Notes under the pieces: model-generated
The model's database searches: none
What the model was told of the DNA's origin: nothing
The model's input: only the letters and a program-made list of their open reading frames with translations
Made by a program: the position numbers and the translations under genes
Part shown: positions 43,487 to 46,932 of the stretch, piece by piece
Layout: every line of letters begins with the position of its first letter
How positions within the stretch are numbered: position 1 is the first letter of the stretch
DNA from: Holophagae bacterium
Lineage (GTDB): Bacteria > Acidobacteriota > Holophagae > Acanthopleuribacterales > Acanthopleuribacteraceae
Length of the DNA: 64,000 nucleotides
Direction: 5' to 3'
NCBI GenBank assembly: GCA_029263455.1
Contig: JAJCXM010000035.1
Location: 124,001-188,000, forward strand

Positions 43487-45307
43487 CTAGTGAGCGTTCG
43501 ACTGGCCCTCTTGAGGCGGGTGATGGACCAACCCAGGTACCATGCCCGCCAACGAGGAAATCCAATGTAGGGGGCCAGAGCGCCACATGCTTGCTAAAGC
43601 TAACAAAGTAATGGCAATGACAGCAACCCAATCCCACCATACCCAACTATGTTCGTGAAATTCCATGATATCTAGAGTCGCTGGGTCGTAAACGGCGTTT
43701 ACCACCAAACCAACAGCAACTGACCAACCCAACGCCAATGCGCCAAATCGAAGCCCTTTGCCCGGCCCAAAGACTTTGTTGACCGTCAGCACCGTCGAAA
43801 TGTTGGTGGCAGGACCCGCAAACAGAAAAACGAGTACCGCGCCCACTGAAAATCCGTGCTGCAAAAGGATCAGTGCGATAGGTACCGAAGCAGAAGCACA
43901 CACATAGAATGGAATCCCCAATAGCCCCAGCAGCAAGATATCCCAATTACCAAACTGGTTTTGCATAAGGTCAACTGGCCAGAGAACCTGAGCCAAAGCG
44001 GCGACGATGAGGCCGAACATGATCAGCGGAAATATGTCATCAACGAGATCGACAAAAGCAAACCGCCACCAAACCGGAGGATCAACAGCACCTTCTTGTT
44101 TCGGATCGGATTCACAACAAGCTTTTGTTTCTTCAATGACTTGAGGTTTTCCGATCCAGGCTACCGCGCTAAGTGCAATCGCGACAGGCAAAAATACAGC
44201 CGCAATGAGTCGAACAATTGTAAATTGCCAGCCCAAGAGTTTAGCTGAAATCAAAAAGGAATCGATGCCGAGTTCCGGCGTAGCTATAAGAAATGCCAAC
44301 AAGGCTGCTGTAGGAAGCCCTTTTTTCGACAGGCCCAGAAACAAAGGTAGAACGCCACAAGAACAAATCGGGAGGGGCAAACCAAACAGCATGCCTTTAA
44401 TACTCTGCGTGAGCGGACGCCCACGGTTCAGCCATTGGATAGGTCGCTGAGGCATAAACTGATGCAAGATGCCCGAAATCAGTAACCCTAGCAACAGATA
44501 AGGCGCTGTTGCTTGCAGTAACACCAGAAATGCGTCAGCAAAATGACCACTTCCGGCTGCCGAATCATGTAGTTCGGCATGGCCGACGCTGTCCGCCCAA
44601 GCACCCTGAGACCAAAAAAAGATGGCAATGCCGACAAAAAATGCTCCAAATTCCCAATGTCGGTCACTGGGCCTATGAGCATGAAAATCGATGAAATCGT
44701 GGATCAGCAAATGGATAAACGAACCACTAATGAACGCATATGAAGCGTTAATGACACCGGAATCGAGAACGTCTCCTAGAGACGCCGCACCCAGAGCGCC
44801 AACCATCGTAGCTAAACCCATGGCACCTAACCTAAGCCAGGCACCGCGGTGATCGCCTCGACGTACAAATAGCCACATCACAATAGCAGCGACCGGAACG
44901 CGATGGGCGATTACCATCCAGGCCATAGGCGCGTCGTTCGCCATGTTCTCGGTTGCCAGCGCCAGTCCTATTCCATCTGTCAGTTGGTGAATTAGAAGTC
45001 CAACCCACACCATCTCTGCTGTGAAAAATCGGTTCGATTCTCCACCATCGTGATGGTCGCCCGGCAGAAGTCGCTCCAACATGATCATGGCAAAAAAGCC
45101 CAGAGCGACAAAAACGAAGCTGATTCCGCCTAAACGCTGATAGGCTTCCGGAATCAAATGAACAAGTAGCAGACAGCCAAAAAAACTAGCCATCAACCCC
45201 TTCAGCGCAGCTATCCCCCAGCCTCTGGTATGCATGACTTTGGCAAAGACAGCGCCTATGAACAAGGCAAAGATACTGGCTATTATGAGAGGCCAAAGAG
45301 ACGTCAT
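43487..45307 (-). CDS. ZIP-like and SO_0444/YraQ-type permease fusion (metal transport)
   Basis: 606 residues, a two-module membrane protein. Residues 1-250 form ZIP-like spans with H-L-I-P-E-A (50-55), H-Q-L-T-D-G (107-112) and A-H135-R-V-P, close to the metal motifs of ZIP importers. Residues ~270-606 form a DUF318-type permease with P-I-C-S-C-G-V-L-P (about 312-320), a loop with C-C-E-S-D, and F-A-G-P-A-T-N, as in the SO_0444/YraQ/ArsP group of metal or metalloid efflux proteins. The ATG overlaps the gpmI stop (ATGA), so it is translationally coupled. An earlier ATG at 45337 lacks an RBS. Direction and metal unknown. Confidence 0.82.
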   Translation of the reverse strand: MTSLWPLIIASIFALFIGAVFAKVMHTRGWGIAALKGLMASFFGCLLLVHLIPEAYQRLGGISFVFVALGFFAMIMLERLLPGDHHDGGESNRFFTAEMVWVGLLIHQLTDGIGLALATENMANDAPMAWMVIAHRVPVAAIVMWLFVRRGDHRGAWLRLGAMGLATMVGALGAASLGDVLDSGVINASYAFISGSFIHLLIHDFIDFHAHRPSDRHWEFGAFFVGIAIFFWSQGAWADSVGHAELHDSAAGSGHFADAFLVLLQATAPYLLLGLLISGILHQFMPQRPIQWLNRGRPLTQSIKGMLFGLPLPICSCGVLPLFLGLSKKGLPTAALLAFLIATPELGIDSFLISAKLLGWQFTIVRLIAAVFLPVAIALSAVAWIGKPQVIEETKACCESDPKQEGAVDPPVWWRFAFVDLVDDIFPLIMFGLIVAALAQVLWPVDLMQNQFGNWDILLLGLLGIPFYVCASASVPIALILLQHGFSVGAVLVFLFAGPATNISTVLTVNKVFGPGKGLRFGALALGWSVAVGLVVNAVYDPATLDIMEFHEHSWVWWDWVAVIAITLLALASMWRSGPLHWISSLAGMVPGLVHHPPQEGQSNAH

Positions 45308-46932
45308 AGGGGCTTGACCAAAAGGGAAGGGCGCCATGATTTGGGAGACGGTAAGCCTAGGAGCTCCGCAATCGTGGAGGCAATATTACTGATACCCCAT
45401 TCGGCACCTTGCCTTAACGTAAAGGGAACTTGCTGTTGAGGGTCGAACAGAATAAAGGGCACCGGGTTTAGGCTATGTGACGTCTTAACCGCCGGAATTC
45501 CGGCTGCTGTAAGAACGACTGCCCCGTCTTTGGCATGTTCAAACATTTCTTCGGCATTACCGTGGTCAGCGGTAATCAAAGCAACTCCGCCGGATTTGGT
45601 GACAGCCTTCAGCAAACGACCTAGTTCCAGATCAAGACAAGTCATCGCAGTTATGGTTGCTTGCAAATTGCCCGTATGCCCGACCATGTCGCCATTGGCA
45701 TAGTTGGCCCGAATGAACTTGCTTCGACCTGATCCGATTTCTGCAATCAGCGAGTCGGTAATCTCGGCTGCTTTCATCCACGGACGTTGTTCAAACGGTA
45801 ATAAATCCGAAGGGATTTCAACAAAGTGTTCTTTTGCGGGAGCCATTTTCCCGGAGCGGTTTCCGTTCCAGAAATAGGTAACGTGCCCATATTTTTGTGT
45901 CTCGGAGATAGCGTATTGCGTCACATCCGCTTCAACTAACAACTCGGTCAGTGTTTGCCTAATTTCCGGCGGCGAAACCAAATAACGATTCGGAATTAAC
46001 AAGTCACCATCGTATTGCATCATGCCGGCATAAAAGACGTTAGGTACGCGTTCTCGTTCAAACTCAGTAAATGAATCATCCTCGTCAAAAGCCCGCGAAA
46101 TTTCGATTGCCCGATCGCCGCGAAAATTGAAAAGGATGACACCATCACCATCAAGAATAGGTCCGACAGGGCCAGCTTCGTCGCAAATGACAAAGCCCGG
46201 TAGGTATTGGTCGATGACGCCAGGATCTTCATCTCGCAGCGTCTTTAATGCTTGATCAGCACTGGAAAATTGACGTCCTTCCCCTAAGACATGATGGCGC
46301 CAGCCCCTTTCAACCATGGCCCATTCGGCCTCGTAGCGATCCATGGTTAGGAACATGCGACCACCACCACTGGCGATACGCGCGTCGTGGCCCGTGTCAC
46401 TTAGGTCATTTAACAAGGACTGTAAACGCTGAAGATAGAGATGAGCGGTTGTTTCACCAACATCACGTCCATCCAATAAGACATGCACGCGAACGCGCGC
46501 TAATCCTTCCCTTTTTGCCTGTCTCAGAAGGGCTTCGAGATGATCAATATGGGCATGGACATTGCCATCCGAGAGCAGACCCAAAAGGTGCAATGTTCCC
46601 GATTGTTGTTTGACAAATTGAACTAATTCTCGCCACACAGTTCCATTAAACAAGGAGCCAGACTGAATGGCATTGTTCACCAACAACGCACCTTGATCAA
46701 CAATTTGACCCGCTCCCAACGCATTGTGACCCACTTCTGAATTGCCCATGTCCTGATCGCTAGGCATGCCCACAGCGCGACCGTGCGCGGTTAGTGGACA
46801 GAAGGCGTGCGACGCCATAAGTTCATCGAGCACCGGCGTATGCGCCAGTGTGAACGCGTTTCCAGCGTCAGAAGTAGACAGACCAACCCCATCCATGATG
46901 ATCAGAGTTAGTGGGCCATTAATCGCTTTCAC
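45304..46932 (-). CDS. gpmI: 2,3-bisphosphoglycerate-independent phosphoglycerate mutase
   Basis: Interconverts 3- and 2-phosphoglycerate in glycolysis via a phosphoserine. The 542-residue length is typical of the two-metal alkaline-phosphatase-type enzyme. The first metal Asp is D14 (M-D-G-V-G). The nucleophile is S65 in M-G-N-S-E-V-G-H-N-A-L-G-A-G. Later metal-site motifs are A-D-H-G-N-A-E and the S-H-S-L-N-P-V-P region. GTG start with AAGGAG 7 bases upstream. Middle of the valS operon, 15 bases after the preceding gene. Confidence 0.96.
   Translation of the reverse strand: MKAINGPLTLIIMDGVGLSTSDAGNAFTLAHTPVLDELMASHAFCPLTAHGRAVGMPSDQDMGNSEVGHNALGAGQIVDQGALLVNNAIQSGSLFNGTVWRELVQFVKQQSGTLHLLGLLSDGNVHAHIDHLEALLRQAKREGLARVRVHVLLDGRDVGETTAHLYLQRLQSLLNDLSDTGHDARIASGGGRMFLTMDRYEAEWAMVERGWRHHVLGEGRQFSSADQALKTLRDEDPGVIDQYLPGFVICDEAGPVGPILDGDGVILFNFRGDRAIEISRAFDEDDSFTEFERERVPNVFYAGMMQYDGDLLIPNRYLVSPPEIRQTLTELLVEADVTQYAISETQKYGHVTYFWNGNRSGKMAPAKEHFVEIPSDLLPFEQRPWMKAAEITDSLIAEIGSGRSKFIRANYANGDMVGHTGNLQATITAMTCLDLELGRLLKAVTKSGGVALITADHGNAEEMFEHAKDGAVVLTAAGIPAVKTSHSLNPVPFILFDPQQQVPFTLRQGAEWGISNIASTIAELLGLPSPKSWRPSLLVKPL

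Follow-up and report, generated by a model that had tools for sequence, protein, structure and literature searches.

One gene of a Holophagae bacterium raises the question of why a single protein should combine a module resembling a metal importer with a module resembling a metal exporter. A first-pass annotation of the 64,000-nt stretch of DNA that carries the gene (hereafter, the window) described it as a ZIP-like module fused to an SO_0444/YraQ-type permease, and suggested that it may tune metal supply to the mutase encoded by the adjacent gpmI. We considered whether the fusion is real, to which families its halves belong, how widely it occurs and what it may do.

The fused reading frame

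The gene is read on the minus strand, from 45307 to 43487, as an open reading frame of 606 residues without an internal stop; an in-frame ATG upstream, at 45337, is an alternative start that would give a product of 616 aa. All four motifs that had been assigned to a single frame, i.e. HQLTDG, AHRVP (residues 134-138 of the translation), PICSCG and CC, were located in it. The features are as follows.

43487..45307, minus strand: fusion gene, ZIP-like module plus permease, 606 aa (open frame; fusion in 7/7 genomes of the family)
44594..45307, minus strand: N-terminal ZIP-fold module, residues 1-238, eight predicted TM helices (AlphaFold models, Foldseek, VIA, hhalign)
44972..44989, minus strand: HQLTDG of helix 4, residues 107-112, with H107 and D111 (sequence and family conservation)
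44891..44905, minus strand: HRVPV of helix 5, residues 135-139, V139 being at the Glu position of stand-alone ZIPs (family alignment)
44696..44713, minus strand: His/Asp of helix 7, residues 199-204, with H199, H203 and D204 (family alignment)
43673..44572, minus strand: C-terminal ArsP_1/SO_0444-like permease, residues ~246-545 (PF03773; predicted fold of ArsB/INDY type)
44354..44371, minus strand: PICSCG, residues 313-318 (sequence)
44114..44119, minus strand: CC pair, residues 397-398 (sequence; unconserved across the family alignment)
45304..46932, minus strand: gpmI, upstream neighbour of the fusion gene (TIGR01307, 422 bits, cut-off 330.65; its stop overlaps the fusion start)

A stop or frameshift between the halves is ruled out by the open frame and by a congener (G001), which encodes the same fusion protein at 70% identity without a stop; a sequencing artefact is therefore excluded. 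Between the two congeners, for which synonymous sites are saturated, pN/pS was 0.27 in the N-terminal half and 0.22 in the C-terminal half, and both halves are under purifying selection.

Fold and descent of the N-terminal half

The domain search that had been proposed for the two halves recovered PF03773 in the C-terminal half, but a Pfam scan of the window protein gave no hit to the ZIP family (PF02535) at E <= 1. The N-terminal half thus fails the curated Pfam cut-off for ZIP, and no Pfam family matched it at E <= 0.01. Searches of PDB sequences with phmmer and hmmsearch returned weak chance matches or none. Of the N-modules scanned, 18/36 matched PF02535 at E <= 0.01.

Comparison with stand-alone ZIPs of the same class gave a different picture. 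A profile of the N-terminal half aligned with six of them by hhalign at 98.6% probability (E 5e-16; in a repeat comparison 98.6%, E 7e-16), against 1.0% for the control pairing of permease and ZIP. Homology was also found by phmmer for the stand-alone class ZIPs L011-L016, which are 240-246 aa long (E 2e-14 to 2e-12), and the three class ZIPs that were scanned clear the Pfam ZIP cut-off (66-77 bits vs 35.1). For the AlphaFold model of the N-terminal half (pLDDT 88.5), the best eight Foldseek matches were all ZIP entries with probability 1.00, and VIA gave Z 10.4-12.8 against ZIP structures over 204-226 residues (12.8 for BbZIP), the best non-ZIP row being 8.3. The top Foldseek match of the whole-protein model was also BbZIP, at an E of only 0.016.

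Since profile comparison, permease control and predicted structure agree, we placed the N-terminal half in the ZIP fold: its model has the eight helices of ZIPs, and its sequence is homologous, by profile, to accepted ZIPs. The agreement of fold and profile, together with the clean control, rules out chance motif matches, and no assignment to a different family emerged. The ZIP-like character of this half therefore stands as to fold and descent, but not as to function as a canonical importer.

The altered metal site

The binuclear site of BbZIP comprises M99, H177, N178, E181, Q207, D208, E211 and E240, and the helix-7 residues H275/E276 are described as coordinating metal in the release path (excerpts of PMC9873690 and PMC11429975). 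By alignment through stand-alone class ZIPs and by numbering offsets in the fold match, H177, N178, E181, Q207, D208, E211 and H275/E276 correspond to positions 107, 108, 111, 135, 136, 139 and 203/204 of the window protein; M99 and E240 were left unmapped. Conservation was counted in a script-made alignment of 80 family members.

H107 is present in 79/80 members (Arg in L097) and H135 likewise in 79/80 (Pro in L060), position 111 is acidic (D/E) in 80/80, and H199 occurs in all 79 members that reach that position, where the stand-alone class relatives compared have Tyr. Residue 139 is V in 68, I in 8, M in 2, L in 1 and T in 1; Glu is found in none of the 80, and in each of the three stand-alone class relatives compared. 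Hence, of the M1 site (His and acid of helix 4, His/Gln and Glu of helix 5; ligand roles as given in the text consulted of PMC9873690), three of the four elements are present. Residue 204, the equivalent of BbZIP E276, is acidic (Asp) in only 3 members, the window protein among them. Judged from these residues, the N-terminal half is not a canonical ZIP, having lost the helix-5 glutamate, which is Val here and absent in 80/80, and gained a histidine in helix 7.

The C-terminal permease

PF03773 matched residues 256-537 with 114.4 bits, well above the Pfam cut-off for ArsP_1 (32.3). The nearest NCBIfam model was the SO_0444 Cu/Zn efflux equivalog (NF033936), at 231.5 bits (cut-off 300). The permease assignment thus held as a relative of SO_0444, but equivalog status is unsupported because the score lies below the cut-off. 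SO_0444 is reported to be needed for growth of Shewanella under Zn or Cu stress and is proposed to be an efflux protein (PMC3219624, in part).

The predicted fold of residues 245-545 resembled ArsB, INDY and YdaH-type carriers with Z 11-13 (VIA Z 12.7), a likeness which may reflect a shared arrangement only. Carriers of the INDY/ArsB type are elevator transporters, as is BbZIP. In gammaproteobacterial fusions (e.g. L074, L066, L079) CSC has mostly become C-x-P and TPE has become TPI or API, C315 and C470 being retained. The Psychromonas fusion protein reaches up to 774 aa.

Distribution and history of the fusion

All seven family genomes (7/7) have the fusion, and the titles of the records in which it was found name six phyla. 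Scanning genome contigs yielded 66 loci. In 47 of them the fusion is complete and its permease intact; the other 19 comprise 2 contig-cut fusions with an intact permease, 11 stand-alone genes, 2 cut stand-alone genes, 1 frameshifted, 2 permease-decayed and 1 (L116) that is cut by the contig end. Complete fusions came from records titled Acidobacteriota, Pseudomonadota (Psychromonas, Moritella, Motilimonas and Neiella), Gemmatimonadota, Planctomycetota, Binatota and Bdellovibrionota, the phylum labels being those titles and many matches being metagenome bins. Within the phylum, 65/396 sampled genomes matched the N-module profile, mostly through ZIPs like the canonical ones of the class and not through fusions. 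No relative of the fusion was found in the viral contigs searched. In the window genome the fusion itself was the sole match to the fusion protein, and PF02535 had no match at E <= 1, against 13/14 control genomes with one. At G331:C39:50855-51740 there is an apparent broken fusion gene, its ZIP-like and permease matches being partial and split into separate pieces.

Of 55 fused permeases in the permease tree, 54 group in a single clade (SH-aLRT 84), separate from the stand-alone permeases; the permease of L061 lies outside it on a long branch. In the N-module tree, several forks of which are weakly supported, a stand-alone Kangiellaceae clade adjoins fused rows inside the fused set, and so does a stand-alone clade of Acidobacteriota. 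The window lineage may tentatively be taken as an early branch of this tree, which is rooted by a long outgroup branch and in which the window lineage is itself long. Acanthopleuribacter pedis (L064, 7887-9794, and L017, 4898-7030) and Sulfidibacter corallicola (L080 and L097) each have two fusion copies on different tree branches. One fusion event followed by losses would be the simplest reading of the trees. The ZIP-like/permease pairing is real, old and widespread. Among the titles and abstract openings listed by literature searches we found no description of such a fusion; ZIP and ArsP are named as separate items in the part consulted of PMC7997004.

The halves are also separable, which argues against their strict coupling. 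H107, D/E111, H135 and H199 are retained in 16/16 complete stand-alone forms and in 6/6 permease-decayed fusions (L057, L058, L059, L061, L088, L117; L116, where the gene merely ends with the contig, was excluded). In these six, C470 is present in 0/6 and a Cys aligns at 315 in at most one. Because the ligands persist in stand-alone and decayed forms, the ZIP-derived half is the constant element, with a role beyond that permease. A permease match of some kind was present in each of the 22 genomes searched among those with stand-alone or decayed forms; in some it is just the fusion or a fragment. The Kangiellaceae permeases are not the detached partner, because they group with the stand-alone permease lineage in the tree.

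Gene neighbourhoods

The gpmI gene lies directly upstream, its TGA overlapping the fusion ATG as ATGA (TGATG in the congener), and valS is on the same strand, three genes further upstream. The order valS, gpmI, fusion was present only in the window and the congener: at no other locus compared was the gpmI gene cluster seen within four genes, and these loci include the seven remaining fusions of the five other family genomes. A conserved gpmI partner was thus rejected, as was a constant metal-regulator neighbour: the 125 neighbours scanned matched 171 Pfam families, each in at most 4 of them, and the ArsR-type regulator family HTH_5 was hit in only 4/125.

Some neighbours hint at metal, none specified. 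One A. pedis fusion copy has an adjacent member of an ArsR-type gene cluster, and Motilimonas has a CzcR/CopR-like regulator near its fusion genes (254 bits, below the cut-off of 279). Divergently oriented genes upstream of the fusion encode imelysin and di-haem oxidoreductase in A. pedis, Holophagae 8_bin.70 and Sulfidibacter; imelysin-like proteins are thought to be active in iron uptake (PMC3143127, in part). In Kangiellaceae and their relatives (L089, L093, L111, L119, L122 and related loci) the unfused ZIP-like genes overlap or abut a conserved upstream gene of 460 aa, and they mostly precede a histidine kinase and a sigma-54-type response regulator.

Discussion

The reading we favour, by a modest degree, is that of a conserved two-module membrane protein of metal homeostasis, an efflux-type permease joined to an unusual ZIP-derived metal module; beyond the observed fusion and altered site, metal binding, substrate, direction and co-operation of the halves are inferred. 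The C-terminal half is an efflux-type carrier of the ArsP_1/SO_0444 kind, with its INDY/ArsB-like predicted fold. For the N-terminal half the most probable function is to bind or move a transition metal via H107, D111, H135 and H199, in a way that differs from that of a canonical zinc importer. Most plausibly, metal would be taken up or sensed by the ZIP-derived half and exported by the permease half, Cu or Zn being the probable substrate. This reading is favoured by the fusions in all seven family genomes, the evidence for the ZIP fold, the kept ligands, the PF03773 score and the Zn/Cu phenotype of SO_0444. Against it stand the score below the SO_0444 cut-off, the varied neighbourhoods with so few HTH_5 genes, and the gammaproteobacterial permease motif, which is mostly C-x-P and not CSC.

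An unlikely alternative is that the ZIP-like half no longer transports and has become a metal sensor or a dimerisation module through which the exporter half is gated. The loss of the TM5 Glu in every member and the rarity of an acidic residue at the E276 position of TM7 agree with it, since Ala at the E276 equivalent is reported to abolish transport by human ZIP4 (PMC11429975, in part); the window protein, however, retains D204, and a pure regulator would not need ligands that persist where the permease is absent or decayed. We give the same low credence to a further proposal, an importer of altered selectivity whose fused permease exports, making a two-way homeostat in one chain. Three of the four named M1 ligands, the new helix-7 His and purifying selection on both halves suit such a protein, but residues essential in the ZIPs studied are missing and import activity is putative. 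Rather improbable, in our judgement, is a bolder reading, in which the N-terminal half would be a distinct ZIP-derived transporter class, with His in place of the site carboxylate and a softer metal such as copper; the ancestral fusion would then pass metal between two elevator-type carriers in one chain, as a self-contained homeostat or exchanger, later broken up in several lineages that retained the ZIP-derived half.

The tuning of metal supply to GpmI did not fare well. The overlap with gpmI in both congeners speaks for it; yet gpmI is adjacent in this genus alone, other loci have different neighbours, and no evidence ties the fusion substrate to Mn. Because the gpmI/valS setting is genus-specific, the link to the mutase is unsupported, and we regard it as very improbable.

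The fusion is commoner than the window alone could reveal, and what makes it interesting is the rewired ZIP site, together with the persistence of that site without the exporter. A second module is revealed in a gene where Pfam reports the permease half alone (PF03773). Across the loci the ZIP transport site is rewired and the attached exporter is kept, decayed or lost. This natural series makes it testable which residues ZIPs need for transport, and whether a carrier of import type and one of export type can act as one protein.

Comparison with known systems

With the ZIP family (BbZIP, PDB 5TSA/7Z6M; PF02535) the N-terminal half shares the eight-helix fold, the H..D-G of helix 4 and the H-R-x-P of helix 5; it differs in having V, I, M, L or T for the TM5 Glu, in its attachment to a second transporter and, in the window protein, in the lack of a PF02535 match. 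The stand-alone class ZIPs (L011-L016), in contrast, are unfused and, in those compared, have Glu in helix 5 and Tyr/Ser in helix 7, Tyr being at the position of H199. With the SO_0444 family (NF033936; PF03773) the C-terminal half shares homology and the PICSCG motif, whereas the fused permease scores below the equivalog cut-off, forms its own clade and is joined to a ZIP-fold module.
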